Shown: positions 18,543-61,128 of the stretch, piece after piece
Layout of the letters: each line of letters begins with the position of its first letter
Position numbering within the stretch: the first letter of the stretch is position 1
Source: an uncultured Eubacteriales bacterium
GTDB lineage: Bacteria; Bacillota; Clostridia; Christensenellales; Aristaeellaceae
Assembly: GCA_902790525.1 (NCBI GenBank)
Contig: CADASI010000007.1
Coordinates: 1-61,128, forward strand
DNA: 61,128 nt
Direction: 5' to 3'
The notes under the pieces: generated by a model
What the model was told of the DNA's origin: nothing
The model's input: only the letters and a program-made list of their open reading frames with translations
Databases searched by the model: none
Translations under genes and position numbers: made by a program

Positions 18543-19880
18543 ATGGACGGACAGGTATCCTTTTTTGAGCGCGAGACGCCCCAGCCTCTCGCGGCGCGGC
18601 TCCGGCCCGCGACGCTGGACGACATCGTGGGCCAGCGCCACCTGATCGGGCCGGGAAAGATCCTCCGGCGCATCATCGAATCCGACGGCGTGTCGTCGAT
18701 GATCTTCTGGGGCCCGCCGGGGGTGGGGAAGACCACGCTGGCCCACGTCATCGCGCGCACCACAAAATCCAGCTTCATTGAATTTTCCGCCGTCACCAGC
18801 GGCATCCGGGAGATTCGCGCCGTGATGCAGAAGGCGGAGCAGAACCGGGCGCTGGGGGAGCGGACCATCGTGTTTGTCGACGAGATCCACCGCTTCAACA
18901 AGGCCCAGCAGGACGCCTTTCTGCCCTTCGTGGAGAAGGGCAGCATCGTGCTGATCGGCGCGACCACCGAGAACCCCTCCTTTGAGGTCAACAGCGCGCT
19001 TTTATCCCGCTGCCGGGTGTTCGTGCTGAAGGGGCTCACGGAGGAGGACATTCTCGAGCTCCTCAGGCGGGCGCTGAAGCGCCCCGAGGGGCTGGGCGGA
19101 CAGGACATCGACATCGGCGACGAGGCCCTCTTAATGATCGCGCGCTTTGCCAACGGCGACGCCCGCACGGCGCTGTCCATACTGGAGATGGCGGTCCTGA
19201 ACGGCGATTTCGACGGCGAGCGCACCTCGGTGACGCCCGAAACGGTGGAACAGTGCACCCAGCGCAAGTCGCTCATGTACGACCGGAACGGCGAGGAGCA
19301 CTACAACATCATCTCCGCGCTGCACAAGTCCATGCGCAATTCCGACCCCGATGCCGCCGTGTACTGGCTGGCACGGATGCTGGAGGCAGGGGAGGACCCG
19401 CTCTACGTCGCCCGGCGCGTGACCCGCTTCGCCAGCGAGGACGTGGGCCTGGCCGACCCGAGGGCGCTTCAAATTGCGGTGGCGGCCTACCAGGCGTGCC
19501 ACTACATCGGCATGCCGGAGTGCACCGTGCACCTGACCGAGGCCGTGGTGTACCTGTCGCTGGCCCCCAAGTCCAACGCCATGGAGACCGCCTATATGGC
19601 CGCGAAGCAGGATGCGCTCAAGCAGCTCAGCGAGCCCGTGCCGCTGAACATACGAAACGGCGTCACCCAGCTCATGCGCAACGAGGGCTACGGCAAGGGG
19701 TATCAGTACGCCCACGACACCGCCGAGAAGCTCACCGACATGCAGTGCCTGCCGGATTCGCTGGAGGGGCGGGAGTACTACGTGCCCACCGACCAGGGTG
19801 TCGAGGCGAAATTCGGCGAGCGCTTAAAGCAGATCAAGGCGTGGAAGGCAGCCCGGCGCGTTAATCACGATTTAACTTGA
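18543..19880 (+). CDS. rarA: Replication-associated recombination protein RarA
   Basis: The 445-residue AAA+ ATPase has Walker A GPPGVGKTTLAH near residue 57, Walker B FVDEIHRFNKAQQDAFLP, the sensor region GATTENPSFEVN, and the C-terminal MgsA/WHIP-type tetramerisation domain. RarA acts at stalled replication forks, probably removing or remodelling DNA ends. The first residues MDGQVSFFE resemble a clamp or SSB contact peptide. It follows rsfS by 4 bp, so all three genes form one transcript. Confidence 0.9.
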   Translation: MDGQVSFFERETPQPLAARLRPATLDDIVGQRHLIGPGKILRRIIESDGVSSMIFWGPPGVGKTTLAHVIARTTKSSFIEFSAVTSGIREIRAVMQKAEQNRALGERTIVFVDEIHRFNKAQQDAFLPFVEKGSIVLIGATTENPSFEVNSALLSRCRVFVLKGLTEEDILELLRRALKRPEGLGGQDIDIGDEALLMIARFANGDARTALSILEMAVLNGDFDGERTSVTPETVEQCTQRKSLMYDRNGEEHYNIISALHKSMRNSDPDAAVYWLARMLEAGEDPLYVARRVTRFASEDVGLADPRALQIAVAAYQACHYIGMPECTVHLTEAVVYLSLAPKSNAMETAYMAAKQDALKQLSEPVPLNIRNGVTQLMRNEGYGKGYQYAHDTAEKLTDMQCLPDSLEGREYYVPTDQGVEAKFGERLKQIKAWKAARRVNHDLT

Positions 19881-37957: not shown

Positions 37958-38234
37958 CAGAAAGCCACGACCGGGAACAAGTAGGCCCGACGCTTCCCTT
38001 CCAGAGAGCCGCCGGAGGCTGCGAGGCGGCAGGGGACGACGGGGCGAATACATCCCGCGAGCTGCGCACCGAAAGGCATCGAGTAGGCTGCGACGGATTT
38101 CGTCCGTTATCACGATAGGGTATAAGCCCCCATGGGCCGTACCCGATGAGGACGTCTTTCGCGAGAAAGCGTCGAATAGAGGTGGTACCGCGGATCATCC
38201 GCCCTCTGTGTCACAGGCACGGAGGGCGTTTTTT
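37958..38234 (+). promoter_or_regulatory. T-box leader with a probable tyrosine specifier (UAC)
   Basis: The T-box sequence AATAGAGGTGGTACCGCGG is at 38175-38193, followed by a terminator stem (38200-38228, CGCCCTC/GAGGGCG) and six T. Upstream is a Stem I with the AGTA loop-E segment, an AGAGAG bulge region, and on its 3' side GAATACATCCC; the specifier TAC at 38049-38051, preceded by GAA and followed by A, reads tyrosine. The bulge UGGU pairs with an ACCA 3' end, which fits tRNA-Tyr. Uncharged tRNA should stabilise the antiterminator and switch on the symporter gene. Confidence 0.9.
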
Positions 38235-43824: not shown

Positions 43825-43872
43825 ACAACCAGTATTGTATAAAAAGTTCAACAACGGTTGGGAGTTTTTTGC

Positions 43873-46946: not shown

Positions 46947-47022
46947 GCACCATTAGCTCAGTTGGTAGAGCACCTGACTCTTAATCAGGGTGTCCAGGGT
47001 TCGAGCCCCTGATGGTGTACCA
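46947..47022 (+). tRNA. tRNA-Lys (anticodon CTT)
   Basis: The 76-base gene folds into a standard cloverleaf: acceptor GCACCAT/ATGGTGT, D arm AGCTCAGTTGGTAGAGC, anticodon arm CCTGACTCTTAATCAGG with anticodon CTT, T arm CAGGGTTCGAGCCCCTG, and an encoded CCA end. It sits at the junction of core chromosome and the phage-like region, as expected for an integrase target. Confidence 0.95.
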
Positions 47023-47523: not shown

Positions 47524-48596
47524 GCAACCCCGGAGGGGTTGCTTCCAGGACGCGCCCGCGACGTGAGGCCAGGCAACGCCAGCCCCGTTAGGGGCTGCTG
47601 GTGGCGGAGCGACGCCGAACGCCAACCCCGAAGGGGTTGAGCGCCGTGGATGCCGAGCGAGGCCAGCCCCGAAGGGGCTGCGGATCGCGCCCAGGAGGCG
47701 AGGCCAACCCCGAAGGGGTTGAGCGTCGAGAGCCGCCGAGCCAGGCAATCCCGAAGGGATTGAGGGGCCGCGCTTGCGATGCACCGCCAATCCCGAAGGG
47801 ATTGAGGCCCTGGGGAGCTGCTGCACCGCCAATCCCGAAGGGATTGAGGCCCAGGAGAGACGCCGCACCGCCAGCCCCGTAGGGGCTGCCAGCGAGGAGC
47901 GCATGGGGAGGCCAGCCCCGAAGGGGCTGCGGATCGCGCCCAGGAGGCCGCCGCCAGCCCCATAGGGGCTGATCGTTCGGGCCGTTCCATTTCGCCGTTC
48001 GGCCCCAGCCCTTTAGGGCTGCGATGATCCGGCCTGGCCGCCGGGATTCTTCCACGAAGCGCCTGCGCGTTGCGAGGGCTACGCAACGTCAGCCCCTATG
48101 GGGCTGGGGTCAGCCTGGTCGGCAGGCCGGTCCCCTCCACGAAGCGCCTGCGCGTTGCGATGCCCAGCGCAACGTCAGCCCCTATGGGGCTGGGTCATTC
48201 TGGCTGGCCGGGCCGAAGCCCTCCACGAAGCGCCTGCGCGTTGCGATGCCTGGCGCAACGTCAGCCCCTATGGGGCTGGGCCGATCTGGCCGAGCTGCTG
48301 GCCGCCGGACCGTCAGCCCCTATGGGGCTGGGTCATTCTGGCTGGCCGGGCCGAAGCCCTCCACGAAGCGCCTGCGCGTTGCGAGGGCGGAGCGATGGCG
48401 GCCCCTATGGGGCCGGGGCCGGTCTGCCGAGCTGGGCCGATGCCCTCCACGAAGCGCCTGCGCGTTGCAATGCCCGGCGCAACGTCAGCCCCTATGGGGC
48501 TGGGTCGATCTGGCCGACCTGGTGGCAGCCGGACCGTCAGCCCCTATGGGGCTGGGGTTCGCGCCCAGGAAGCGCGGGGCAGCCCCTTTGGGGCTG
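47524..48596. repeat. Array of about 20 covarying hairpins with three- or four-base loops
   Basis: Hairpins start at 47524, 47580, 47623, 47664, 47705, 47746, 47788, 47830, 47872, 47913, 47955, 48006, 48090, 48176, 48262, 48314, 48399, 48486, 48538 and 48580. Most have the form CARYCCC, a loop of 3-4 bases, then GGGRYTG. Stems switch together between AGCCCC/GGGGCT, AACCCC/GGGGTT and AATCCC/GGGATT. Loops are mainly GAA on the left (41-42 bp period) and TAT on the right. In the right part a second 24-bp repeat (CCACGAAGCGCCTGCGCGTT plus GCGA) alternates with the hairpins. Open frames run through the array in several phases, but they only reflect repeats. I see no gene in 47023-48971. Confidence 0.85.
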
Positions 48597-48971: not shown

Positions 48972-49868
48972 ATGAAGCGCAACGCCAACACCGCCACCGT
49001 CGCCGCCACCGCGGCCACCGCCACCGCCAGCACGCAGAACACGACCGAGCGCAAGAGCGCAGAGAGGAGCACGCACATGAAGCGCAACACCGTCACCGTC
49101 GCCGCCATCGACACGGCCTGGAAGTTCACCCCCGCGACCGTCGCCCTCAACGGGCACGAGTTCGCCGCCCGCAAGTACGACATCGCCAAGAATGGCGATG
49201 TGTACGTGCTCACGATCATCGAGGGCGTGGGCATCCGCCTCCACGTCGGCAAAGCCTCGCCCGTGTATCACGAGGCCCTGGAAGTCGCCGCGGCGATCAA
49301 GGCCCAGCCGCAGCCGACGGCTAAAGCCGTCCAGGCTGAGAAGCCCGCCGAACCCGCCGCCGAACCGGCGAAGCCGGTTGAGACCAAGGCCGCCGAGCCT
49401 GCGAAGCAGGCCAAGCCCGCCACCAAGCGCAAGGCCCCCGCGAAGGCTGCGAAGCAGCCCGAAGCCGCTGCCGAACCGGCGAAGCCGGTTGAGACCAAGC
49501 CCGCCAAGGCTGCGAAGCAGCCCAAGGCCGCCAAGCCTGCGAAGCAGGCCAAGCCTGCCGCTGAACCGGCGAAGCCGGTTGCCAAGGCCGCCGCGAAACC
49601 CGCCGAACCGGCGAAGCCGGTTGTCCCCGCCGACAATGCCTGGATCGGCACGGCCATCGAGGGCAAGGGCTGGCGCATCGCGTTCGACGAGGCCACCCAG
49701 CGCACGAGGGTGATCTTCGCCGCCGATCCTTCTGCGAAGCAGAAGGCCGCCATCGACGCCGCCGGGTTCTTCTGGAGCAACACGACGAAGTCGTGGAACA
49801 AGAAGCTCACCCGCAAGGCGTACCGCGCCGCCGTCGCCCTGTCCGAAACCCTGAACGCCATCGCCTGA
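48972..49868 (+). CDS. Phage-element protein with Ala/Lys/Pro repeats and a GFxWS-type C-terminus
   Basis: The 298-residue product has a Thr/Ala-rich start, a domain at about 40-110 (WKFTPATVALNGHEFAARKYD), a repeat region at 115-220 built from EPAKPVETK, AAKQPKAA and similar units, and a C-terminal domain (IDAAGFFWSNTTKSWNKKLT) of a kind also seen at the ends of DUF3560-type plasmid and phage proteins. Nine AK codon pairs are flanked by complementary codons, so the repeat region encodes DNA/RNA hairpins with GAA loops. A second in-frame start at 49077, with its own GAGAGGAGC site and the same MKRN beginning, would remove 35 residues. No enzymatic motif is visible. Confidence 0.7.
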   Translation: MKRNANTATVAATAATATASTQNTTERKSAERSTHMKRNTVTVAAIDTAWKFTPATVALNGHEFAARKYDIAKNGDVYVLTIIEGVGIRLHVGKASPVYHEALEVAAAIKAQPQPTAKAVQAEKPAEPAAEPAKPVETKAAEPAKQAKPATKRKAPAKAAKQPEAAAEPAKPVETKPAKAAKQPKAAKPAKQAKPAAEPAKPVAKAAAKPAEPAKPVVPADNAWIGTAIEGKGWRIAFDEATQRTRVIFAADPSAKQKAAIDAAGFFWSNTTKSWNKKLTRKAYRAAVALSETLNAIA

Positions 49869-49872
49869 TGGC

Positions 49873-49911
49873 GTTCACGGTTTCACCGTGAACCCTGCGG
49901 GCAACGCCCGC
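49873..49911 (+). promoter_or_regulatory. Two hairpins in the leader of the next small gene
   Basis: GTTCACGGT/ACCGTGAAC with a TTC loop (49873-49893) and GCGGGC/GCCCGC with an AAC loop (49897-49911) are followed by GAATCATTC and GAAAGGAGC. This is a divergent form of the hairpin leader found before other genes of the element. Confidence 0.6.
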
Positions 49912-50117: not shown

Positions 50118-50225
50118 ATGGCCCGCCGGTTACGGGCCGAAACGCTGGCCCAATTCATGGGCCGCGTAGCGGAAAACCAAGGCCGCGAAATCATTTCGGA
50201 CGCCCGCCATGCGGGCAGGAAGGAG
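50118..50225 (+). promoter_or_regulatory. Multi-hairpin leader with shortened core hairpin
   Basis: The space between two genes can fold as GGCCCG/CGGGCC near 50119-50137, GGCCCA/TGGGCC near 50143-50162, CGAAAT/ATTTCG around 50186-50198, and finally GCCCGC-CAT-GCGGGC at 50202-50216 directly before AGGAAGGAG. The last one is a compact version of the core leader hairpin. Confidence 0.6.
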
Positions 50226-50233
50226 CCAACACC

Positions 50234-51160
50234 ATGAATACCCAGGACATTCTCACCCGCGTCAACGCCGCCATGGCATTGATACCGAAGGACGATGCCT
50301 ATGCCATTCCGGGGACGGTATTCGGCGAGCTTTCGACACTCGCCAGCGATCTGGAAGCGAAGCTGCGCCTGGAGTACGCCAGCAGCAAGGGCGCTACGGA
50401 CGCCACCCGAACGATTACGAAGATGCTGAATTACATGAAAAAGCATGACTGCCGCGAATCGCTGCATTACGCCTGGCTGGACAGCGATGGCCGCCAGTGC
50501 GCTTGTGACGGTTATCGGGCGTATCGCCTGAAGGAGCCGCTGCCATTAGAGCCTCGACCGGAAAACGCCGGTGAAGCATTTGACCTGAACGGCGTCATCC
50601 CGAAAGACCTGCGCGGTTACGCCGCCGTGCCATTGCCGAGCCTCCAGGAAGTCAAGGCGCATATCGCCGTAGAGCGTGCGAAGTATACCGGCAAGCGCGG
50701 CGGGTTTGTCGCCCTATGGGACTTCGGCGAGGGCAAGCCGGTTGTCAATGCCGAGTATCTGCGCGATCTGCTCCAGGTGTTCCCGGACGCCGCCGAAATA
50801 TTCTGTGGCGTAGGCACAAAGCTGTATAGCCCGCTCTACGTCCGCTGCGACGCCGGTGAAGCGGTTCTGCTGCCGGTTCGGACAGATCGCACCAAGGCCG
50901 AAATTGACGCCGCTCGTAAGGCGAAAGAGGACGCCGAACAGGCGATTCAAGCCCAGGCCGAAGCCGAAGGACGCGACCCCGAATACATCCGGGAGCGCGA
51001 GGAGCGCAGGGCGAAGCGCAAGGCGCAGGCGAAGAAAGCCCTGGACGAGCAGCTGAACCATATCCGCATGGAGATGGCGTTGAGCGAGGATTACGCGCTG
51101 GAATTGGACGAGTTCGAGTACCTGGTCAACCTGATGGACGAGATCGGCATGGTCGCATGA
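50234..51160 (+). CDS. Phage-element protein, possibly clamp-like
   Basis: The 308-residue protein has an N-terminal helical part, then CACDGYRAYRL at about residue 95 and later VNAEYLRDLLQVFPDAAEIFC and LYSPLYVRCDAGEAVLLPVR. These two patterns, an internal DGYR and a C-terminal LPVR, recall sliding-clamp-like proteins of phages, but the match is weak. A charged coiled coil (KAEIDAARKAKEDAEQAIQA and on) and an acidic tail follow. The start has AGGAAGGAGCCAACACC. Confidence 0.55.
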   Translation: MNTQDILTRVNAAMALIPKDDAYAIPGTVFGELSTLASDLEAKLRLEYASSKGATDATRTITKMLNYMKKHDCRESLHYAWLDSDGRQCACDGYRAYRLKEPLPLEPRPENAGEAFDLNGVIPKDLRGYAAVPLPSLQEVKAHIAVERAKYTGKRGGFVALWDFGEGKPVVNAEYLRDLLQVFPDAAEIFCGVGTKLYSPLYVRCDAGEAVLLPVRTDRTKAEIDAARKAKEDAEQAIQAQAEAEGRDPEYIREREERRAKRKAQAKKALDEQLNHIRMEMALSEDYALELDEFEYLVNLMDEIGMVA

Positions 51161-51180
51161 CAACGCCGCTCAATCATTCT

Positions 51181-51219
51181 GACGCCCGCCGGTCGGCATT
51201 GTAGGCCGGCAGAAAGGAG
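51181..51219 (+). promoter_or_regulatory. Core leader hairpin, type 2
   Basis: GCCGGTC pairs with GGCCGGC around the loop GGCATTGTA, followed at once by AGAAAGGAG, the ribosome binding site of the gene at 51226. Type 2 differs from type 1 by two base-pair flips (C-G to G-C and G-C to C-G) that keep the stem. Confidence 0.8.
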
Positions 51220-51225
51220 CGCACG

Positions 51226-51972
51226 ATGCGTTATCTGCTTTATCTGCCCGGAATTATTCTGATCCTGGTTCCCATTCTGGCAATGCGCCACGCCGCCAAG
51301 CGGGCGGAGCAGGCAAGGCGCGAGCAGGAAGCCGAGCGGGCTGCTGCCGCCGAGCAGCGCCGCATTGAGGCCGAACGCAAGCAGGCCATTCAGCAGCGCA
51401 AGGCAGCCGAGCGCGAGGCGGCCAAGGTCGCCAAGGAAGCCGAGCAGCAGTGCAAGCAGGCCGCCAGGCTGGAAGCCGCCAGGCAACGCGCCGAGTATGC
51501 GGAGCGCGAGTTGGCCGCCAAGCGGGAAGCCAAGGCATTGGAACGCGGCGAGATCATTCCGGCGGAGCCAGAGCGGCCGGAAGCGCCCGCCGATCCCGTG
51601 GAGCAGGCACAGCCTGCGGCGGACGATCAGCCGACGCCGGAACCGGCCAAGGCCCCGGCAATGAACGTGCCCAAGATCAAGGGCAACAATGCTTTCAAGG
51701 GCCACATGGTCGCCTTTACGGGCAAGCTGCCCGGCATGACACGGCGCGAGGCCATTCAGGCCGTCCAGGACAACGGCGGCAGGGCCTACGAGAAAATGCC
51801 TGTGGGCACGACGCTTCTGGTGGTGGGTGACAAGCCCGGTATGTGCAAGATGGACAAGGCCGATGAATGGATTGGACAGGTCCGCAAGATCACCGCCGCG
51901 CAATTCTTCGCCATGCTGGAGCAGCCGTTGACCCTGGAGCTGGACGAGTTCGCCGCGCTTTACGCGGCGTAA
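51226..51972 (+). CDS. Membrane-anchored coiled-coil protein with a C-terminal BRCT-like domain
   Basis: The 248-residue protein has an N-terminal membrane helix (YLLYLPGIILILVPILAM, residues 3-20), a long charged coiled coil (about 22-110), a Pro/Ala linker, and a C-terminal BRCT-like domain at about 155-230: GHMVAFTGKLPGMTRREAIQ, NGGRAYEKMPVGTTLLVVG, KADEWIGQVRKITAAQFF. BRCT domains as in NAD-dependent DNA ligase bind DNA ends or phosphopeptides. Tethering one to the membrane is unusual in bacteria and might hold phage DNA or a replication complex at the membrane; that is inference. Confidence 0.75.
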   Translation: MRYLLYLPGIILILVPILAMRHAAKRAEQARREQEAERAAAAEQRRIEAERKQAIQQRKAAEREAAKVAKEAEQQCKQAARLEAARQRAEYAERELAAKREAKALERGEIIPAEPERPEAPADPVEQAQPAADDQPTPEPAKAPAMNVPKIKGNNAFKGHMVAFTGKLPGMTRREAIQAVQDNGGRAYEKMPVGTTLLVVGDKPGMCKMDKADEWIGQVRKITAAQFFAMLEQPLTLELDEFAALYAA

Positions 51973-52007
51973 CCATACACACGATCATGAAAGCGAGGTA
52001 TCACATC

Positions 52008-53249
52008 ATGGAGAACATCACGCAGGATTATTTCATCGTCAACAAGGAGACCGGCAAGCTGGAATTGCACTTCGACAAGGCGACCTACCAGGCGCTGGAC
52101 GATGACGTCAAGGCCGAGATCCAGAGCAATTTCCTCTGGGGCCGCCGCTCCGGCTGCTGGATCAGCCGTTGCAAGGAGCCGAACCTGTACCACGCCAAGC
52201 GCGTTGCGCAGAAGCATGGATTGATCGACGCCGGGAAAACGGGCGAACGGTTGTCCTTCGCAGAGCAGATGGAGCGCAAGGCCGAGCGCGCCGAGCGCCG
52301 GGCCGAGCGATACGACGCCAGGAGCGAGGCCGCCGAGAAGCGCGGTGAGGCATTGCAGAAGCCGATCAACGACATGCACGGCGACATTGCGTTCTTCACG
52401 CAGCCGAACATCAACACCAGCGGCGGCCGAGCATTCACCCGGCGGCGCGAAAAGATGTTCGCTGCATTCGACAGGGGCTTCGAGGAGTTCCGCAAGTCGG
52501 CCTACTGGCAGGGGCGCGCCGATACGGCCCGCGCCACGGCGAGCCAGAAGGAATTACAGAACCGTGGGTTCGTGCAGCGCAGGATCGCGGAACGCGAGAG
52601 CAGCATTCGCAAGGTGAAGAAGGGTATTGAAGAATACGAGGGTTTCCTGGACGCACTGGAACGTGGCGAGACGCCGCGGGATCATTACGGCTGGGAGATC
52701 AAGCTGACGCAGGAGCAGTTGCAGGAGCAGATCGAGACCTGGCTGGACCGGCTGGAGGCGCTGCTGGACGAGCTGGGATTCTACCAGGGCTGCATGGACA
52801 GCCTGGGCGGCGTCAAGTTCTCCCGCAACAACATCCAGGTCGGGTATCACGTCCGCTACCGCGGCAAGAGCATCGGCGAAGTGATCTCCAGGGGCCTGAA
52901 GAATTGCACGCTGCGGGACATCAACAGCCGGTTCAACTACACGCCGGTGGTGTCCTACGCGGAGATTGACGAGATCGTCCGGAAGGCCGAAGCCCAGGAG
53001 GACGCGCAACCCTTCCAAGTCGGCGAGGAGTTCACCTGCTCCCGCTGGGTCAACGGGCATTCCACGGACATCGTGTACCGCATTATCAAAGCCACGGACA
53101 AGACCGTGACATTGCAGGTCGGCGACGAGAAACCCATCATTCGCAAGCCCACCAGGGTGCCGTTCAACGGCGGGACCAGATGGTGGTTGCGCATCAATGA
53201 CGGCTACAAGGGAACCATCACCCGGGAAGTCGGGTGCAGCGCCAAGTGA
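52008..53249 (+). CDS. DUF3560-domain protein
   Basis: The 413-residue protein has an N-terminal domain (KLELHFDKATYQALDDDVKA with FLWGRRSGCWISR), then the DUF3560 core (EQMERKAERAERRAERYDAR, KPINDMHGDIAFFTQPNINT, RGFEEFRKSAYWQGRADTAR) and a C-terminal part with VGYHVRYRGKSIGEVISRG and VGEEFTCSRW. DUF3560 proteins are frequent on plasmids and phages and their function is unknown; a role in DNA transfer or anti-restriction has been proposed by context only. The start at 52008 has a weak AAGCGAGG site, without the core leader hairpin. Confidence 0.75.
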   Translation: MENITQDYFIVNKETGKLELHFDKATYQALDDDVKAEIQSNFLWGRRSGCWISRCKEPNLYHAKRVAQKHGLIDAGKTGERLSFAEQMERKAERAERRAERYDARSEAAEKRGEALQKPINDMHGDIAFFTQPNINTSGGRAFTRRREKMFAAFDRGFEEFRKSAYWQGRADTARATASQKELQNRGFVQRRIAERESSIRKVKKGIEEYEGFLDALERGETPRDHYGWEIKLTQEQLQEQIETWLDRLEALLDELGFYQGCMDSLGGVKFSRNNIQVGYHVRYRGKSIGEVISRGLKNCTLRDINSRFNYTPVVSYAEIDEIVRKAEAQEDAQPFQVGEEFTCSRWVNGHSTDIVYRIIKATDKTVTLQVGDEKPIIRKPTRVPFNGGTRWWLRINDGYKGTITREVGCSAK

Positions 53250-53364
53250 CGCTGCGGAATCATTTGCCCCAGGGAGCGCGGCGGTGAGAGCCCAGGCAGA
53301 ATACAGCGAGCCGGGGCGCCGTGCAGACGGGCGAGCGCACTAGGATCACGAAAGGAGCACAACG

Positions 53365-54117
53365 ATGAGCAGCACCGAAATCACGGCCTTTGTCGCCAAC
53401 CTGACGCTCCACGGGGAGCATGAACCGATGACCTACGACGATGCGTTTATCACGCTCAATGAGTGGGTGAAGGATGGCATGGAATTGCCCGAAGGACTGA
53501 CGGCCCGGATATTGGCCGACGAATGGAACAGCATGATCGCAGATGAAAGGAGCATGAACATGAACAAGAGCATCAACCCCGAATCCGTATTGAGCACCAC
53601 CCGCGCCGAGTGCCTGCGGGGCATGGAGAGCGCGAACATGGACGCCCGCATGGCCTGGTATTACACCCATTGCGGGGAGATCGAAATGGCCTCCTTCCTG
53701 GGGACGATCACCAATGAGCGCATGAACGCGCTGGAGCGCGAGTGGCGGGAGCACAAGCCCATCGCCGGGAATTATCCCGACCGGCAGCGCGACCCGGACT
53801 GGACGCGGGACGAGGCCAGGGCATTTGAGATGCAGCGCGTCGCCGACAGCGCGTTGAAGCTGCTGAAGACGGCGAGGCCGGAGCGCAGCCTGGGCATTGC
53901 CTACGTGAAGCCGAACGCCGAGACGATTGAGCAGTTCACCGACTGGCAGCGTCAGCGCAATCACATCCACACGGGCAGCGAGTATTTCTTGGTGTGGGAT
54001 TTCGCGCCGGACTGGGAGACCGACGAGCCCGATCTGCTCTACGCGGTGGATGTGAGCGCCGACAGCCTCCTCACCGCCGCCTATGAGCTGATGGAGTTGC
54101 TGCATCGCAAGTTCTGA
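53365..54117 (+). CDS. Unknown protein with a second internal translation start
   Basis: The 250-residue frame begins MSSTEITAFVANLTLHGEHE after GAAAGGAGCACAACG. At 53554, in frame, AGATGAAAGGAGC precedes a second ATG (MNMNKSINPESVLS), which would make a 187-residue protein. This suggests two small genes that have fused, or one gene with two products. The second part has WYYTHCGEIEMASFLGTITN and YFLVWDFAPDW, with no family that I recognise. The 115-bp space before it has imperfect hairpins but not the core leader. Confidence 0.55.
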   Translation: MSSTEITAFVANLTLHGEHEPMTYDDAFITLNEWVKDGMELPEGLTARILADEWNSMIADERSMNMNKSINPESVLSTTRAECLRGMESANMDARMAWYYTHCGEIEMASFLGTITNERMNALEREWREHKPIAGNYPDRQRDPDWTRDEARAFEMQRVADSALKLLKTARPERSLGIAYVKPNAETIEQFTDWQRQRNHIHTGSEYFLVWDFAPDWETDEPDLLYAVDVSADSLLTAAYELMELLHRKF

Positions 54118-54120
54118 CAC

Positions 54121-54158
54121 GACGCCCGCCCGTGGGCATGGTACGCGGGCAGAAAGGA
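54121..54158 (+). promoter_or_regulatory. Core leader hairpin, type 1
   Basis: GCCCGTG pairs with CGCGGGC (one T-G pair) around GGCATGGTA, followed by AGAAAGGA. The gene starts 8 bp later at 54166. The hairpin begins a few bases after the stop of the previous gene. Confidence 0.8.
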
Positions 54159-54165
54159 TTACGCT

Positions 54166-54555
54166 ATGACTACTACGCAGATTTTGACCGCCGCTTACGC
54201 GGAAATCTTCGGCATCGAGCCGAAAGAGAACGGCAGCTACTACGGCCAGAAAGCCGGGGAGTGCGAGATTGAGTACGCGCACTTCGACGATTACTACGTG
54301 AAGGACTATGACATGGACACGGATTACTTCGATGCCATGACGGAGGACGGCAGCGAGGGCTGCTGGATTGGAGTGTTTCGCAACAGGTTCGTCCGTGGCG
54401 AAGGCCGGTATGAACATGATCGTGTCGGTACGATCAAGACGCTGTGTGAAGGTCGCACGGCCTGGAAGGACATGGGCGCCCTGGCCGGTGAATTGGCATA
54501 CCTCGCCAATAACGACATTGCCTGGAAGCTGCGCAAGGAGAGCAAGCAGGACTGA
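54166..54555 (+). CDS. Small acidic protein of the phage-like element
   Basis: The 129-residue product (MTTTQILTAAYAEIFGIEPK) is acidic, with YYGQKAGECEIEYAHFDDYY and an aspartate-rich centre. I do not recognise it. Acidic small phage proteins are often DNA mimics that block host enzymes, but nothing in the sequence proves that here. Confidence 0.6.
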   Translation: MTTTQILTAAYAEIFGIEPKENGSYYGQKAGECEIEYAHFDDYYVKDYDMDTDYFDAMTEDGSEGCWIGVFRNRFVRGEGRYEHDRVGTIKTLCEGRTAWKDMGALAGELAYLANNDIAWKLRKESKQD

Positions 54556-54571
54556 CGCTCAAAAATCATTC

Positions 54572-54610
54572 GACGCCCGCCCGTGGGCATGGTACGCGGG
54601 CAGAAAGGAG
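54572..54610 (+). promoter_or_regulatory. Core leader hairpin, type 1
   Basis: The sequence is the same as the hairpin at 54121 and is followed by AGAAAGGAGCGCACG and a start at 54617. AAATCATTC precedes it, a motif found before several other copies. Confidence 0.8.
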
Positions 54611-54616
54611 CGCACG

Positions 54617-55048
54617 ATGACATTCACCAAAGCGGACGAAGTAAAGGCGCATCTGTGGGAGGCGCTTCACCTGGACGATCACGCGATCACGTTCCATGTG
54701 ATTGACGTGGGGGACGATATTATGTACTTCCGGCCTGGGATTATTGATTGTTCCGGCGACCTGTGGGAGAGCGACGGGTGGTTCGACATCGGCACAGCGC
54801 ACTATGACGAGAAGGAAATCCGCGTGTTCGCCGTGGAATCGTACATGATCGGTGACGGCGAATCCGATCACGCGGATTACAGCGATTGTGAACAGCTTGA
54901 AAACATCAACGAGGAATCGCCTGACGCGATGGACGCATTTTTGAGGGAATATGCTGACGTGCTGTGTTCGTTTGGAGATTTTGAACTCGATAATCCCGCG
55001 TATGAAGAACCTGACGAGGAGGAGGATGACGATGACGCCGAGATTTGA
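54617..55048 (+). CDS. Acidic protein of the phage-like element
   Basis: The 143-residue product (MTFTKADEVKAHLWEALHLD) has a mixed N-terminal half (VIDVGDDIMYFRPGIIDCSG) and a strongly acidic C-terminus with a run of Asp and Glu. The calculated charge must be very negative, as in DNA-mimic inhibitors; function unknown. Its last 17 bp overlap the next gene. Confidence 0.65.
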   Translation: MTFTKADEVKAHLWEALHLDDHAITFHVIDVGDDIMYFRPGIIDCSGDLWESDGWFDIGTAHYDEKEIRVFAVESYMIGDGESDHADYSDCEQLENINEESPDAMDAFLREYADVLCSFGDFELDNPAYEEPDEEEDDDDAEI

Positions 55049-55283
55049 CACCTATGTTGCCGTGTTCTTCGAGGATGACCACGGCATGACGATCACTAAG
55101 TTTGTAACCAGCGCCGAGCGTAACACCGCGCATTGGGAGGCGGGCAAGGAAGCTCACCCGTTCGCTGAATCCTACGCGAAGGACATCGTGTTCGGGCTGA
55201 CGCTCAACGGATACGCCGCCGCTGTAATCAAGGTGCTTCATGGTGTGGAATTACGGAACAGACCAGCCGAAATGCCCCAATAG
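55032..55283 (+). CDS. Small protein overlapping its upstream neighbour
   Basis: The 83-residue product begins MTPRFDTYVAVFFEDDHGMT. It starts inside the end of the acidic gene, using GAGGAGGATGACG as its ribosome binding site, so the two are translationally coupled. No family recognised. Confidence 0.65.
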   Translation: MTPRFDTYVAVFFEDDHGMTITKFVTSAERNTAHWEAGKEAHPFAESYAKDIVFGLTLNGYAAAVIKVLHGVELRNRPAEMPQ

Positions 55284-55391
55284 GGGCATTGCCGCGAGTT
55301 GCCCTACGCGGCCTGACGATGGCAGGGCAGGAAGGAGGACAGCACGCAACCCGTCACTATCACGACTGAACACGAGACCAACACCACGCGG

Positions 55392-55417
55392 GCCGGGCGC
55401 GTAATCCCGGCAGGAGG
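55392..55417 (+). promoter_or_regulatory. Variant hairpin leader
   Basis: GCCGGG (55392-55397) pairs with CCCGGC (55406-55411) and is followed by AGGAGG before the small gene at 55423. Another hairpin plus GGAAGGAGG at about 55318-55340 (GCAGGGCAGGAAGGAGG) has no ATG after it and may be the relic of a lost gene. Confidence 0.5.
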
Positions 55418-55422
55418 TAACA

Positions 55423-55551
55423 ATGTCCGTTATCTGTATCGTCCTGGTCGCCTCGATACTGAGCGATGCCTGGGAGGCCATCGAGAGGCGCATCAATGAA
55501 CGCTTTGCGCGTGTCAAGTTCTATCGTCCCCGTCAGTACAAGTTTAACTGA
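55423..55551 (+). CDS. Very small membrane-type protein
   Basis: The 42-residue product starts MSVICIVLVASILSDAWEAI and ends in a basic stretch. The first half is hydrophobic. AGGAGGTAACA precedes the start. Position in the series and the leader hairpin support it, but the length makes it tentative. Confidence 0.5.
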   Translation: MSVICIVLVASILSDAWEAIERRINERFARVKFYRPRQYKFN

Positions 55552-55581
55552 CAACGCCGCAGGATTATTCACACCATGACC

Positions 55582-55619
55582 GACGCCCGCCCGTGGGCAT
55601 GGTACGCGGGCAGAGAGGA
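55582..55619 (+). promoter_or_regulatory. Core leader hairpin, type 1
   Basis: Same hairpin as at 54121, followed by AGAGAGGATAACCC and the start at 55626. Confidence 0.8.
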
Positions 55620-55625
55620 TAACCC

Positions 55626-55796
55626 ATGAGGAAGATCAAGCTCGCCAATGACATGTTCATCCCAGGATGGGGGAGGATTGCGAAGGACACCGCTTTCAAG
55701 GTCCAGAAGTTCAACAAGCGTTATGTGTACGTCGAGGTTGCGGATCGTGTGATCCTGCGCCTGGCGCGGAAGCGCGATTGCGTCACCGTCTACTGA
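55626..55796 (+). CDS. Small basic protein of the phage-like element
   Basis: The 56-residue product (MRKIKLANDMFIPGWGRIAK) is basic, with alternating strands (KRYVYVEVADRVILRLARK), and could be a small SH3-like nucleic acid-binding protein. This is a guess from pattern only. It is too short to be listed by most ORF tools but has a clear leader and ribosome binding site. Confidence 0.6.
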   Translation: MRKIKLANDMFIPGWGRIAKDTAFKVQKFNKRYVYVEVADRVILRLARKRDCVTVY

Positions 55797-55810
55797 TCGA
55801 GCAACAACAC

Positions 55811-55849
55811 GACGCCCGCCGGTCGGCATTGTAGGCCGGCAGAAAGGAT
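55811..55849 (+). promoter_or_regulatory. Core leader hairpin, type 2
   Basis: Same as the hairpin at 51181, followed by AGAAAGGATGACACC and the start at 55856. Confidence 0.8.
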
Positions 55850-55855
55850 GACACC

Positions 55856-57001
55856 ATGATTAAGCACCTGTTCCATGAAGTGATCGGCGGCGGCTACGGT
55901 ATGCGCCGCAAGACCATCATCGACACCACGGAGATCGAGCCTGGCAAGTATGAGACCATGGCGATTGTCGAGGCAACCGGCGAGGAGCTGGAGAGCACCA
56001 CGACGGACAACGCCCAGGACGCGGAGCGCGACTTCCGGGCAATGATCCAGCGCCACGCGGAGCCTTTGCAGGCGGCCTTCTACCGGGCCGCGATGGTTCC
56101 CGGGGAGCGGTACACGCTGGTATTCCTGGGCGAGTTTGGTTTTCCCGTCGATCTGCGCATCACCTTCCGCGAAGCGGAGCTGACAACCTATGCGCAGTAT
56201 GACGATGCCGTGTCTTTGAAATTCATGCTCCAGAAGAAGCGCAATCCGCGTAAGATGTTCCTGTACAATCGCTCGTTCCTGATCTATTCCGGGTGGCGCA
56301 ACCTGGATAAAACGGCCACCTATAACGTGCATAAGTGCGATGGATGCACGGTGATGTCCTCGAAGTACGGCAGCTTCGACGAGCGTTTCATGGACGATAT
56401 TAAGGCGATGTGGCCGGATTATATCGTGGCCTATGACCATGACCGCGTTCACCGGCGCGACGACGAAACCGCCGCCGAGATCGAGACGAACGAGCAGGCG
56501 AGCGAACCGAGACAGCCCTACCCGCTGCTGCCCGGTCTGAATGTGGTGTTTGACGCGGAGGGCGCTGACGGGCCGTGCGTTGACATCGACGCGGACGAGT
56601 TCGCCAAACTCTACGCCGTCGATGGTGAGGAGATTGAGGACCCGGAGGAGCGCCTGACGCGGGCACTGAAACGCGCCGCTATCGCTTCCGTGTCGCACAT
56701 AGACGAGCCTGACGGCGGCACCTGCAATTTCGATTCCCCGGCGCTGGACATTTCCGCCTGCGGTATGAAAAAGGAGGATGTGGAGCGCATCATCAACGCC
56801 GTCGGCCTCCATTGCCACGACTGGCAGCCCTTCAAAAACCATCGCGGGGATGATGGGAAGGTCATCAAGGCCCCGACCTTCCTGGTGATCTCCGGCTTCC
56901 AGTGCGGACAGGGCAACCGTCACACCCACATGGCGGAGGCGTTTTGTCAGAGCATGAACATGGACGGATTCGAGACGCAGATGTATTACCAGATGGACTG
57001 A
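55856..57001 (+). CDS. Unknown 381-residue protein of the phage-like element
   Basis: The protein begins MIKHLFHEVIGGGYGMRRKT and is a mixture of alpha and beta segments. Noted parts are TTDNAQDAERDFRAMIQRHA, LFLYNRS-type strands, EFAKLYAVDGEEIEDPEERL and a C-terminal ISGFQCGQGNRHTHMAEAF segment with two histidines. I do not recognise a family. It is the longest unknown gene in the series. Confidence 0.65.
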   Translation: MIKHLFHEVIGGGYGMRRKTIIDTTEIEPGKYETMAIVEATGEELESTTTDNAQDAERDFRAMIQRHAEPLQAAFYRAAMVPGERYTLVFLGEFGFPVDLRITFREAELTTYAQYDDAVSLKFMLQKKRNPRKMFLYNRSFLIYSGWRNLDKTATYNVHKCDGCTVMSSKYGSFDERFMDDIKAMWPDYIVAYDHDRVHRRDDETAAEIETNEQASEPRQPYPLLPGLNVVFDAEGADGPCVDIDADEFAKLYAVDGEEIEDPEERLTRALKRAAIASVSHIDEPDGGTCNFDSPALDISACGMKKEDVERIINAVGLHCHDWQPFKNHRGDDGKVIKAPTFLVISGFQCGQGNRHTHMAEAFCQSMNMDGFETQMYYQMD

Positions 57002-57020
57002 CGCCGCAGGATCATTTCAA

Positions 57021-57058
57021 GCGCCCGCCCGTGGGCATGGTACGCGGGCAGAGAGGAG
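57021..57058 (+). promoter_or_regulatory. Core leader hairpin, type 1
   Basis: Same stem and loop as at 54121, with GCGCCC instead of GACGCCC at the left edge. AGAGAGGAGG follows and the gene starts at 57065. GGATCATTTC precedes it. Confidence 0.8.
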
Positions 57059-57064
57059 GCTATC

Positions 57065-57274
57065 ATGAAGCTGGCTGAATTGCTGACGGTGCTTAATTCC
57101 TACACGGTGATCCTCGTGAATGACAAACGCTCGATAGGCGTTTTCCATGGCGAAGTGAGCATCGCGGAAAGCGAGATCAACGAAAGGTACATGAACGCCA
57201 AGGTATGCACGATGTACACGGAGTATTACAAGGGCTTCGGCAAGACCGGCATCACCATCATCGTGCAGCCGTGA
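57065..57274 (+). CDS. Small protein of the phage-like element
   Basis: The 69-residue product begins MKLAELLTVLNSYTVILVND and looks like an alternating alpha-beta fold. Some phage DNA-binding regulators start in a similar way, but no match can be claimed. Confidence 0.6.
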   Translation: MKLAELLTVLNSYTVILVNDKRSIGVFHGEVSIAESEINERYMNAKVCTMYTEYYKGFGKTGITIIVQP

Positions 57275-57294
57275 CGGCAGCGAAGGAGGACGCA

Positions 57295-57585
57295 ATGAAC
57301 AAATACGTTATCGCCTACATCAACAGGCGCGGTCACGCGGATTGGCCCAGGTCAAAGACTATCGAGGCGAAAAACGCGAAGGAGGCGCGGAAGGTTTTCG
57401 ACGATTGGTATTGGTCTCGCGGGGGCGATCTGCCGCACCCGTTCCACATCAAGGTCAAGCGGTATGACGATCTGACCAAATGCCCGCTTTGCGGTGATCC
57501 CCTCGAAGCGAAGGATGGCCCGGATGCTGGTTATGTATGCTCGCGCATCCGCTGTGGATTGAAGATCAAGCGCGAATGTGAATGA
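57295..57585 (+). CDS. Zinc-ribbon protein of the phage-like element
   Basis: The 96-residue product has an N-terminal domain (MNKYVIAYINRRGHADWPRS) followed by EAKNAKEARKVFDDWY, which resembles small DpnD/PcfM-like domains. The C-terminal ribbon has CPLCG at about residues 63-67 and CSRIRC at 82-87, four zinc-ligand cysteines. It may bind nucleic acid. GAAGGAGGACGCA precedes the start. Confidence 0.65.
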   Translation: MNKYVIAYINRRGHADWPRSKTIEAKNAKEARKVFDDWYWSRGGDLPHPFHIKVKRYDDLTKCPLCGDPLEAKDGPDAGYVCSRIRCGLKIKRECE

Positions 57586-57588
57586 CAC

Positions 57589-57626
57589 GACGCCCGCCCG
57601 TGGGCATGGTACGCGGGCAGAAAGGA
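57589..57626 (+). promoter_or_regulatory. Core leader hairpin, type 1
   Basis: Same hairpin as at 54121, followed by AGAAAGGACGCATC and the start at 57633. Confidence 0.8.
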
Positions 57627-57632
57627 CGCATC

Positions 57633-57866
57633 ATGAATAAGGCACGCAGGAATCGCATTGCAGATGTGCAATCGCAGTTGGAGGAATTGAAGCAGGAGAT
57701 CGACTCGATCCTGGCCGAAGAACAGGAGGCATACGACAACATGCCGGAGAGCTTGCAGAACGGCGAGCGTGGCGAGGCAATGCAGGAGGCGATTGACGCC
57801 CTGGAGAGCGCCGTTTCCTCCTGCGAGGAGCTGGACGAGTACCTGACGAACGCGACAGAGCAGTAA
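57633..57866 (+). CDS. Small coiled-coil protein
   Basis: The 77-residue product (MNKARRNRIADVQSQLEELK) is predicted to be one or two long helices with heptad spacing of Leu and Ile. It could be a dimerising regulator or scaffold. Function unknown. Confidence 0.65.
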   Translation: MNKARRNRIADVQSQLEELKQEIDSILAEEQEAYDNMPESLQNGERGEAMQEAIDALESAVSSCEELDEYLTNATEQ

Positions 57867-59136: not shown

Positions 59137-59685
59137 TCACTTATCGTAGATATGCGACGCGATCATGTCCGCTGTGTGCGTCCACAGCACATTGGGATAG
59201 TAATGCACCGCCCGCGTGTAGTCGCTCCACAGCTCCTTGTCCACGAAAGCGCCCATGTGGTAGCGGATGCACGCCACTTCCTCCTCGGTCAGCGACGCGC
59301 CAACGGAGGCCAGCAGGATCACGCTCTTGTCGCCGTGGCCCTTGAAAAGCGTGTCGCCGCGCCAGGCGTAGACCGGCTTGCCGTCCTCCTCCCGGACCTT
59401 GACGTAGGAATCCAGCTTGCAGATGTCATGGAAGAAGCCCACGATGTACGGACTCTCCGGGCGCTTCCATTCCAGGCCGTTGCGCTCCGTCAGAAGGACG
59501 AGCTGCTGCATCACGCACAGCGAATGATCGAACCATCCGCCGGGATATGACCCGTGAAACTTCGTGCTTGCGGGCGCGTCCAGCATCATGCTCCGCTGCA
59601 AAAAAGCGCTCAACGCCTCGCCGGTAAAGGGTATGTGAGGCTCCACCTGGGCCTTATACGCTTGAATCCTGTCCTCGGCTGTCAT
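59137..59685 (-). CDS. HD-domain phosphohydrolase of phage type
   Basis: The 182-residue protein has the HD metal site: GGWFDHSLCVMQQL, then VGFFHDICKLDSYV, GHGDKSVILLA, and a final aspartate in HTADMIASHI. Phage-borne HD proteins hydrolyse nucleotides or cyclic nucleotides, sometimes to counter host signalling; the substrate is unknown. I chose the ATG at 59685 after GAGAGGAAAGCAAT. It overlaps the end of the integrase gene by 32 bp. Confidence 0.75.
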   Translation of the reverse strand: MTAEDRIQAYKAQVEPHIPFTGEALSAFLQRSMMLDAPASTKFHGSYPGGWFDHSLCVMQQLVLLTERNGLEWKRPESPYIVGFFHDICKLDSYVKVREEDGKPVYAWRGDTLFKGHGDKSVILLASVGASLTEEEVACIRYHMGAFVDKELWSDYTRAVHYYPNVLWTHTADMIASHIYDK

Positions 59686-60223
59686 ATTGCTTTCCTCTCT
59701 TTCTGCCCGACAACACATTGAATTTCATCAGGCTCTCGTCGATGTTCTCCTGGATCACGCCAATGTAGATCAGTGTTTCCCGCTGGTAGCTGTGGCACAA
59801 TATCCTTTGCAGGCTCACCACGTCGCCGGTCATCTTGTAATAGTGATACCCGAACGTCTTGCGCAGCGTATGGCATCCGATCCGCTCCTCGATCCCGGCC
59901 CGCTTTGCGATGGTGTTCATGATCTGATACACCCGCTGCCGCGATATGGGCCTCGGCTTATGCGTCGCGTAGTCCTTCTGCTTACTCTGCAATATGTATT
60001 CCTTGCCGGTCTTTTTCGCCTGGATTTGGGCGTAGTCCTTCCCTCGGATGTCCTGCACCTTGAAGCGCCGGAAGTCGCTCACGCGCAGGCTGGTATTGAA
60101 GCCGACGAGCAAGATCAATTCCCAGCTCACTTCGCCGGTCTTTTTCTGCCTGTCATGCTCCCGCGCTATGTCGTAGCACTTATCCAGCACGTCAAGGTCG
60201 CGTATCGGCTGTACGACCTTCAC
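59654..60223 (-). CDS. Tyrosine recombinase (integrase)
   Basis: The 189-residue protein has the catalytic pattern of tyrosine recombinases: the arginine in NTSLRVSDF, HTLRKTFGYHYY with the second arginine, a histidine in LCHSYQRET, and the tyrosine in LIYIGVIQE. It lacks the long N-terminal arm-binding domain of many phage integrases. The start is a GTG at 60223 after GGGAGGCGATGGCC; it overlaps the upstream stop by 4 bp. It probably integrates the element, perhaps at the tRNA-Lys at 46947. Confidence 0.85.
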   Translation of the reverse strand: MKVVQPIRDLDVLDKCYDIAREHDRQKKTGEVSWELILLVGFNTSLRVSDFRRFKVQDIRGKDYAQIQAKKTGKEYILQSKQKDYATHKPRPISRQRVYQIMNTIAKRAGIEERIGCHTLRKTFGYHYYKMTGDVVSLQRILCHSYQRETLIYIGVIQENIDESLMKFNVLSGRKRGKQYDSRGQDSSV

Positions 60224-60468
60224 CGGCCATCGCCTCCCGTTTTCAGTCTGACTTCCTGGCCGCTGCGGATGTTCAGGCGATAGACTGACGCGATATTGAC
60301 GCCGATTTCCAGAAGCGCCTTTCGCGCCTCTACGGGGCCGTCGAACGTCATCATGTCGCCCCGGCGCTCGCTCCATACGCACGTCGGCACTGGAGCGCCC
60401 AGCTTCATGCGCCCGATCAGGTACATCCCTGTTATATCGTCGCGGATGCAGTATACATACATAATCAT
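60220..60468 (-). CDS. Small unknown protein upstream of the integrase
   Basis: The 82-residue product (MIMYVYCIRDDITGMYLIGR) has beta-type strands and a conserved-looking FDGPVEARKALLEIG segment. Its stop overlaps the GTG start of the integrase (GTGA), so the two are coupled. Function unknown. Confidence 0.6.
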   Translation of the reverse strand: MIMYVYCIRDDITGMYLIGRMKLGAPVPTCVWSERRGDMMTFDGPVEARKALLEIGVNIASVYRLNIRSGQEVRLKTGGDGR

Positions 60469-60560: not shown

Positions 60561-61037
60561 TCACATCTTCTCTCCACTGTCAGTATTCCCGCCAGCATCG
60601 AACGCTTCACCGATCACCAGGCCGGTCCTGTCTTTCATTCGTTTCACGGCGGCTTCTATCAAGTCATCGTCAATACTGATACCGCGTTCAATCAAGGCAG
60701 CTTCCACGTATGCGAGGCGCTTTGCGCCCTGGCCGGGGCCTTTGATTGTCTGTTCAGCCGCGTCAACCAGCTTGCAAATCGCGTCCCATATCAGATTGCG
60801 CTGTTTCTCTGTCGTATGGATTTTCAGCCATTCCTTGATGGGAGGGATCATCACGCGAGCGATCCAGCCCAGCAGGAAGTCGAACACGACGAGCACGACG
60901 GCCACAAATGCGCCGGTGAGATCGACCAGCGGCGCGGCACGGGGCGCGGGATCGGCGGATTCGGCCAGGGTGTAGATGAAAAACGCGCCACAAAGGAAGA
61001 TGGCGACGACCAGAACCAAAGCCAGCAGCTTCTTCAT
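60561..61037 (-). CDS. Holin of the LL-H type (superfamily 6)
   Basis: The 158-residue protein has an N-terminal hydrophobic helix (LLALVLVVAIFLCGAFFIYT), a second one (AFVAVVLVVFDFLLGWIARV) and a C-terminal part with LVDAAEQTIKGPGQGAKRLAY and an ERGISIDDDLIEAAVK segment, the hallmark of LL-H family holins. Holins make membrane holes for host lysis. The ATG at 61037 follows GAAAGGAGTACAAC. It indicates that this is a phage-derived element; no tail or capsid genes fall inside the window. Confidence 0.75.
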   Translation of the reverse strand: MKKLLALVLVVAIFLCGAFFIYTLAESADPAPRAAPLVDLTGAFVAVVLVVFDFLLGWIARVMIPPIKEWLKIHTTEKQRNLIWDAICKLVDAAEQTIKGPGQGAKRLAYVEAALIERGISIDDDLIEAAVKRMKDRTGLVIGEAFDAGGNTDSGEKM

Positions 61038-61054
61038 GTTGTACTCCTTTCGGT

Positions 61055-61128
61055 TCACAGGAATGAGTTCTCCCGAACGCATTTCTCATAGACATCACGG
61101 ATGATGCCTATGCTGATCCGCGCCCGGT
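61055..61128 (-). CDS. C-terminal end of a gene cut by the window edge
   Basis: On the minus strand the last codons read RARISIGIIRDVYEKCVREN and end SFL with TGA at 61055-61057, 17 bp before the holin start. Only about 24 residues are visible, so no function can be given. Confidence 0.5.
   Translation of the reverse strand, partial: RARISIGIIRDVYEKCVRENSFL

Follow-up and report, generated by a model that had tools for sequence, protein, structure and literature searches.

Compact H-type pseudoknots predicted in a fixed slot before the Shine–Dalgarno sites of many phage genes

In a 61,128-nucleotide (nt) stretch of DNA from an uncultured Eubacteriales bacterium (contig CADASI010000007.1 of assembly GCA_902790525.1, hereafter "the window"), a rightward series of small genes at 49–58.4 kb, mostly without known domains, carries short repeated RNA elements directly before ribosome-binding sites. 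As judged by sequence comparison, these elements belong to a family of compact H-type pseudoknots that occupies a fixed slot in prophages and phages, between the stop codon of one gene and the Shine–Dalgarno (SD) site of the next, and that comes in several sequence classes. Several different sequences forming the same kind of knot point to a general way to control or boost phage protein synthesis. The initial annotation of this DNA had described the element as a hairpin with a free loop, having overlooked the pairing of an upstream GCC with a GGC in that loop.

Results

The class A pseudoknot and its covariation

The 31-nt core of the most frequent element in the window (class A) is present in seven exact copies, all on the plus strand, five of type 1 and two of type 2 (Table 1). 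The sequence AGA(A/G)AGGA followed by ATG lies directly 3′ of all seven. None is expected by chance, as 100 dinucleotide shuffles of the window gave zero copies, and the whole assembly holds no further copy when up to three mismatches are allowed. An earlier count of at least eight genes thus stands for seven exact copies flush on SD sites; the supposed shortened copy at 50199 is a plain 6-bp hairpin before an SD site, in which no 7-bp stem, 9-nt loop or knot is possible (E-value 0.63 with the class A model).

Class A would fold as GCC-C-GCCnGyn-GGC-nUnRUA-nrCnGGC-A, a compact H-type pseudoknot in which the 5′ flank pairs with the hairpin loop and both helices covary: a GCC triplet 1–2 nt 5′ of the hairpin stem (S2) is complementary to the loop triplet GGC, giving the second helix, S1. 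Across the family S1 has 3–5 bp, loop L1 1–2 nt, S2 6–8 bp and loop L3 3–6 nt, with zero nucleotides between S2 and the loop half of S1. An L1 of 1–2 nt across 6–8 bp and an L3 of 3–6 nt across 3–5 bp is the classical H-type geometry.

S1 is paired in 111 of 115 class A copies that were picked without regard to S1, the chance-like locus L311 being counted among the 111 and the chance-like locus L097 among the four unpaired ones. When the upstream stretches were exchanged in 5000 trials, the mean was 104.4 and the maximum 109. Variant S1 pairs are CCC:GGG (locus L082), GCG:CGC (locus L254) and GCU:GGC (locus L053); a second CCC:GGG variant, at locus L067, has no SD and lies outside the 115. In 20 of the 115 copies, GCC and stem are 2 nt apart rather than 1, so that pairing of the triplet is kept at a shifted distance.

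For S2, the two types of the window differ by compensatory changes at pairs 4 and 7, which confirms the pair flips noted earlier. A scan of IMG/VR that left these two stem positions free and demanded no SD or start gave 35 stretches with 33 distinct copies; pair 4 is paired in 32 of the 33 (CG 26, GC 2, UA 2, AU 1, UG 1) and pair 7 in all 33 (GC 28, CG 3, AU 1, UG 1). The rows of class A set A1 had already been filtered for a complete S2 and cannot serve as evidence that S2 pairs. These pairing variants support the earlier proposal of a functional, covarying RNA at the ribosome-binding sites of many small phage genes, and the covariation is stronger in the larger sets rather than lost in them.

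A plain hairpin was also considered. The best ViennaRNA fold of type 1 is a nested alternative with an outer GCCCGC:GCGGGC stem and a z-score near 0; this fold is not predicted for type 2 and is lost in the CCC:GGG and GCG:CGC variants. Covariation was therefore preferred over single-sequence energy.

The slot between stop codon and Shine–Dalgarno site

The knots are co-oriented with the gene that follows. S2 ends 0–5 nt before the SD, with 0 nt in 34 and 3 nt in 42 of about 100 cases, and the ATG follows S2 by 11–17 nt in 94 of 110. On the other side, the upstream stop lies 6–9 nt before S1 in 44 of 100, closer in 3, and at 20–24 nt in 19, a longer spacing that is attributed to a stop-adjacent motif, CGCC..ATCATTT. 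This second repeated leader motif, approximately CGCC(GC)NNRATCATTTC, starts at or beside the upstream stop with or without a pseudoknot after it, and was seen at 51164, 55555 and 57002 of the window, by eye near 49905 and 54557, and at loci L267, L270, L251, L253 and others.

The preference for start sites is pronounced: an SD-like site and a start codon follow 31 of the 33 IMG/VR copies, 17 of 18 copies on genome contigs (the exception being a Chloroflexaceae match), 48 of 54 copies from a scan that left the loop free, and 8 of 12 copies of a third stem type, GCCCGGA:UCCGGGC. This test is a lenient one, asking for an SD-like 4–5-mer plus any of three start codons within about 24 nt, and 9–11% of positions taken at random from the same DNA also pass it. 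The copies of the stem-free and loop-free scans overlap. Of 122 curated copies, 102 pass a stricter test, for an SD, an ATG and an open reading frame of 30 or more codons (10 or more if it runs off the end); random positions on the same strand do so in 4.3%. The curated set was obtained by removing 17 of 141 rows by eye (chance stems without GCC or SD) and by other filters, and it keeps the doubtful rows L246, L100 and L049 at 5046.

Compared with the remaining 787 genes of their contigs, which were chosen for class A, the 58 knot genes pair more strongly at the SD and have an initiation region with less folding (p = 0.0009 and 0.002). SD strength was calculated with an anti-SD sequence taken from general knowledge, as the 3′ end of the host 16S ribosomal RNA was not found in the assembly.

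Distribution of class A

Among 84,980 species genomes the pattern scan gave 14 stretches, in metagenome-assembled genomes of Clostridia plus a few others: Verrucomicrobia, Bacteroidales and Gammaproteobacteria (the latter two on short contigs that may be mis-binned) and the chance-like match in Chloroflexaceae. The pattern scans demanded parts of S2 and of the loop, and both the 45 IMG/VR records and the DNA of the descriptor scan were chosen by those patterns; in that DNA, itself fetched by class A patterns, the descriptor found 112 knots against 1 in reversed sequences. A class A covariance model matched 44 of the 45 pattern-picked IMG/VR records, 26 of them once.

A covariance-model search of other genomes, the check suggested with the initial annotation, found the element in 20 of 300 genomes of the host family, in 6 of 396 genomes of the order, three of the 6 being family members, and in 2 of 391 of the class, with the own genome counted each time; the class-level match and one order-level match look like chance. 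This judgement holds for the weak out-of-family matches G618 and G1049. In each carrier genome of the host family the 1–7 matches are confined to a single contig, a pattern that prophages or other mobile elements would give. A 39-nt class A query gave no convincing match among 50,697 phage and 72,556 plasmid records, the sensitivity being low for so short a query.

Class B and other knots in the same slot

Class A is not alone in the slot. Among 2332 SD genes of the fetched DNA, H-type knots other than class A lie 0–5 nt before the SD in 37 rows (24 genes), and the ten next 6-nt bins upstream hold 3, 1, 5, 0, 4, 1, 0, 0, 0 and 0. Five of the 24 genes have class A variants (locus L254 and four with a 5-nt L3), and two, at loci L237 and L302, look like chance. 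Where there is a hairpin other than class A, 26 of 58 cases at the SD also have S1, as do 2 of 63, 2 of 31 and 0 of 14 further upstream; the null for the 26 of 58 is itself high at the SD, with a mean of 8.4 and a maximum of 14. The same knot search in 85 unrelated phage loci found no such knot at any of 519 SD genes. A more general rule, that any hairpin abuts the SD, was rejected: among 799 genes without class A, stems of at least 6 bp end 0–3 nt before the SD in 29, with similar numbers further upstream. The excess at the SD is in knots, not in hairpins generally.

The best defined of these other knots, class B, has S1 pairs of 4–5 nt, GCCG:CGGC, ACCG:CGGU or ACGCG:CGCGU (core CGCG:CGCG), and an A-rich L3; further S1 pairs at the slot are GGGC:GCCC, ACGGC:GCCGU and CGC:GCG. 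A class B copy shares the gene series of the window with the seven class A copies (Table 1) and scores an E-value of 0.0013 with the class B model, being itself one of its 12 seeds. The model was built without S1 pairs from 12 copies themselves chosen for S1. It matched 10 of 300 family genomes (E-values up to 0.01; own genome not among them, as the model at this threshold fails to recover the class B copy of the window) and 13 of 50 phage records (E-values up to 0.05).

In 28 distinct aligned class B copies, 12 of which are the model seeds (rows of set A3, pre-filtered for S1), the outer S1 pair is GC in 19, AU in 6, CG in 1 and something else in 2; all five whole-structure measures exceed 500 shuffles. 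The 16 non-seed copies have all four S1 pairs in 13 cases, with an outer pair GC in 12, AU in 2 and unpaired in 2. Some class B matches, such as locus L327, have no SD. A class B query, distinct from the model search, gave 13 phage records. Two of them were inspected, and one, the named public genome Dulem virus 34, is a good case, its knot lying in the 50-nt gap between two annotated genes; with an E-value of 7, this case rests on anatomy. As knots of different sequence share the slot, much of what stays constant is topology against the SD.

A third leader, CCGCCCCGGAGGUYACGAGGGCAGAA, was seen in 23 listed copies beside SD-like sites (loci L053, L055, L075, L076, L081, L086, L184, L216, L219, L228, L264, L315, L321–L323 and others), with one compensatory change (A..U in locus L264).

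Downstream genes and carrier proteins

The genes downstream of class A knots are unrelated and mostly small, falling into 90 clusters among 115, and a gene-specific riboswitch was rejected on this ground. Among orthologs the leader may be class A of type 1 or 2, the GCCCGGA type, class B or a different one, and some orthologs have none. A comparison of 15 carrier sets gave no protein family shared by them all, so a universal carrier protein was rejected as well; the best family is present in 9 of 15 and resembles a single-stranded DNA-binding protein (SSB) by eye. The window set in this comparison is a truncated prophage, and two contigs lack the last 0.5–2.9 kb. In one carrier phage, a sub-threshold match to the twister-P1 ribozyme (39.7 bits, gathering threshold 67.2) was seen at 18582–18634 on the minus strand of locus L267.

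The window and its prophage arm

The window is one contig of a 3.75-Mb assembly that is 94.66% complete, and its right part looks like one arm of a prophage. Apart from the features in Table 1, we noted a T-box leader on the chromosomal side (37958–38209) and, read from sequence only, a large protein (43858–46803) that looks secreted and has acidic repeats and, at its C-terminal end, a caspase-like stretch. Soon after the tRNA-Lys, a region with no clear genes (47623–48596) holds 17 perfect 17-nt palindromes, such as CAGCCCCGAAGGGGCTG, CAATCCCGAAGGGATTG, CAACCCCGAAGGGGTTG and CAGCCCCTATGGGGCTG, in which changes in the two arms match. Further right, 48972–49868 encodes a PAKPV-type repeat protein; the palindromes AACCGGCGAAGCCGGTT and CCTGCGAAGCAGG recur in its DNA, and parts of the protein are weakly similar to phage primase and SSB families.

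Table 1. Pseudoknots and neighbouring features of the window
Feature	Position	Strand	Core start	Following site and gene	Remarks
Class A pseudoknot, type 2	51184-51210	+	51183	SD AGAAAGGAG; gene 51226-51972 (BRCT domain)	S1 51184-51186 with 51195-51197; S2 51188-51194 with 51204-51210
Class A pseudoknot, type 1	54124-54150	+	54123	gene 54166-54555 (129 aa, unknown)	
Class A pseudoknot, type 1	54575-54601	+	54574	gene 54617-55048 (143 aa, unknown)	
Class A pseudoknot, type 1	55585-55611	+	55584	gene 55626-55796 (56 aa)	
Class A pseudoknot, type 2	55814-55840	+	55813	gene 55856-57001 (381 aa)	
Class A pseudoknot, type 1	57023-57049	+	57022	gene 57065-57274 (69 aa)	
Class A pseudoknot, type 1	57592-57618	+	57591	gene 57633-57866 (77 aa)	
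Class B pseudoknot	55386-55411	+		flush on AGGAGG; gene 55423-55551 (42 aa)	S1 ACGCG:CGCGU, L1 G, S2 GCCGGG:CCCGGC, L3 AAU
Plain hairpin, 6 bp	50202-50216	+		before AGGAAGGAG; gene 50234-51160	GCCCGC-CAU-GCGGGC
tRNA-Lys	46947-47022				prophage-like part lies to its right
Phage integrase (PF00589)	59654-60382	-			right end of window
Holin_LLH protein	60561-61082	-			right end; contig stops there

Comparison with known systems

Rfam 15 has no match over the elements, whether in the window at the gathering threshold, in 54100–54700 at an E-value of 10, or in 11 carrier loci at an E-value of 1; four weak matches in carrier loci lie away from them. Pseudoknots near SD sites are nevertheless known. 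In repZ of IncI-type plasmids, a knot just 5′ of the SD, formed by long-range pairing and under antisense RNA control, is thought to favour translation; the position is alike, and repZ is a single gene. In T4 gene 32, an S2 of about 7 bp is crossed by a 1-nt L1.

Gene 32 of T4 and RB69 has an mRNA pseudoknot 5′ of the SD that serves as a translational operator; it concerns one gene, is autogenous, and has a little-structured stretch of more than 40 nt, holding the SD, 3′ of the knot (PMC535899). Both there and here the pseudoknot is on the 5′ side of a phage SD, whereas the present elements precede many unrelated genes, fall into several sequence classes and lie flush on the SD. The gp32-type arrangement, a knot before the gene of its binding protein, is not what we found, given the 90 clusters among 115 and the lack of a family in all 15 carrier sets. 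The start-associated sequences (SAS) and extended start-associated sequences (ESAS) of Cluster K mycobacteriophages resemble our elements in being short repeats at the starts of many unrelated, non-structural genes; their function is unknown, the SAS is a linear 13-mer, and the authors saw little support for mRNA hairpins at the ESAS (PMC3203893), whereas the RNA pairing of the elements here covaries. The 13-nt SAS, GGGATAGGAGCCC, with up to two mismatches has 2 matches in the window against 1.86 expected, neither in the 49–58.4 kb series.

STAXI, one of 104 candidate RNAs, is likewise a repeated pseudoknot, found near DNA-handling and integration genes as two or three knots in tandem, often with UUCG loops (PMC2864571); our elements have no Rfam match even at an E-value of 10. 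The promoter early stem-loops (PeSLs) of T4-type phages are small mobile cassettes of an early promoter and a stem-loop between shuffled genes (PMC4503421), in contrast to elements that lie 0–5 nt from the SD and often 6–9 nt after a stop codon. Full-text literature, as far as it was open to search with most subscription journals outside its reach, gave no account of SD-abutting pseudoknots reused before many phage genes.

Discussion

The reading that we favour, tentatively and with a little less than even confidence, is that the knot is a general cis-acting leader without a phage-encoded partner, most likely an initiation enhancer or an insulator. Different knot sequences in the same slot argue against a single sequence-specific trans factor and for such a leader, and the unrelated downstream genes, the lack of a common carrier protein and the interchangeability of the knots together favour one that works through its shape. 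A trans-acting protein or RNA, as first proposed for these repeats, is thereby weakened, since the different knots occur in the same phages and before orthologs and no more than 9 of the 15 carrier sets share a protein family. Protection of each cistron, the alternative proposed along with it, may still apply. The knot would fold autonomously, resist invasion by upstream sequence and keep the adjoining SD single-stranded, so that each cistron would gain its own efficient initiation site whatever gene is upstream, which would suit genes shuffled between phages. With the AUG in the P site, the 3′ end of the knot would be near the mRNA exit of the 30S subunit, and S2 could stack on or abut the helix of SD and anti-SD. 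All three steps from structure to function are inferred here. A more specific version, which is possible though we would hold it only loosely, is that knots equal in topology but different in sequence, set before many genes by one gut/rumen phage lineage, dock at the 30S exit side or bar a host 5′ exonuclease with no dedicated factor, selection acting on topology and SD distance instead of sequence.

Several observations weigh against a partner-free leader. L3 of class A has a conserved UNRUA, and S2 ends of the form GC(C):(G)GC with a following A recur in classes A and B, most of these letters having been required by the scans; there may be a sequence-specific partner. The stronger SDs of knot genes do not show an added effect of the knot, and orthologs without any knot exist. 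An SD and start within about 24 nt are missing in 2 of 33, 1 of 18, 6 of 54 and 4 of 12 copies of the four sets above. The pairing has its departures too: among the 115 class A copies, loci L081 (loop UGC), L028 (upstream ACC), L097 and L246 lack full S1, the last two probably being chance matches (L246 lies in a gene that looks like rbfA by eye); outside the 115, locus L137 has the loop GCG; and 3 of the 16 non-seed class B copies depart from full S1.

A translational operator, at which some protein of phage or host would bind the knot and so turn many phage genes on or off together, as T4 gp32 does on its own mRNA, is unlikely in our estimate while retaining some force: a gene series can hold several copies with near-identical loops and conserved L3 and S2 ends, and in gene 32 a pseudoknot 5′ of the SD nucleates repression by gp32 (PMC535899). 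Against it, knots that differ in S1 and L3 share the slot within one genome (55386 and the seven class A copies) and before orthologs, and 26 of the 45 IMG/VR records contain just one match, although fragments are numerous among them. The SSB-like protein would be the natural candidate as the most shared family; SSBs are, however, common in phages generally, and blast did not find this one in 6 of the 15 carrier sets (that of the window, a truncated prophage, bearing on this number). Rather doubtful, too, is an mRNA boundary, at which the knot would halt a 5′–3′ exonuclease (RNase J) or mark a processing site and the cistron would keep a ribosome-ready 5′ end. The knot is in the right place, immediately 5′ of the SD, and viral exonuclease-blocking RNAs are reported to use pseudoknots (PMC5760640, PMC8571300), but a simple H-type knot shows no evident sign of the ring-like fold of exonuclease-resistant RNAs. 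The host has a gene for an RNase J-family protein (628.5 bits, above the curated cut-off); since the same search matches 13 of 14 control genomes, 9 of them above the cut-off, this presence says little.

Near-identical leaders before unrelated genes, and the same gene with or without a leader, could instead mark a recombination border, a short repeat for homology-driven gene swaps between phages in which RNA structure is secondary. This is improbable, as compensatory changes keep the pairing while reducing DNA identity and classes of different sequence share the slot, neither of which DNA homology needs. More improbable still is a recoding signal that would stimulate stop-codon readthrough or frameshifting of the upstream gene, for which the 6–9-nt spacer between stop and S1 in 44 of 100 cases might speak: stop codons are mixed and downstream starts are spread at random over the three frames set by the upstream stop (33, 36 and 31 of 100), so the knot does not look like a recoding device.

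Pseudoknots at ribosome-binding sites have been known as single-gene switches; here they appear as interchangeable parts, reused before dozens of unrelated phage genes. If the knots need no partner to boost initiation or to protect mRNA ends, they would be small, transferable expression parts and would offer a natural test of the influence that structure just 5′ of the SD has on the ribosome. Should a factor read them instead, they would constitute a phage-wide translational regulon in uncultured gut phages.

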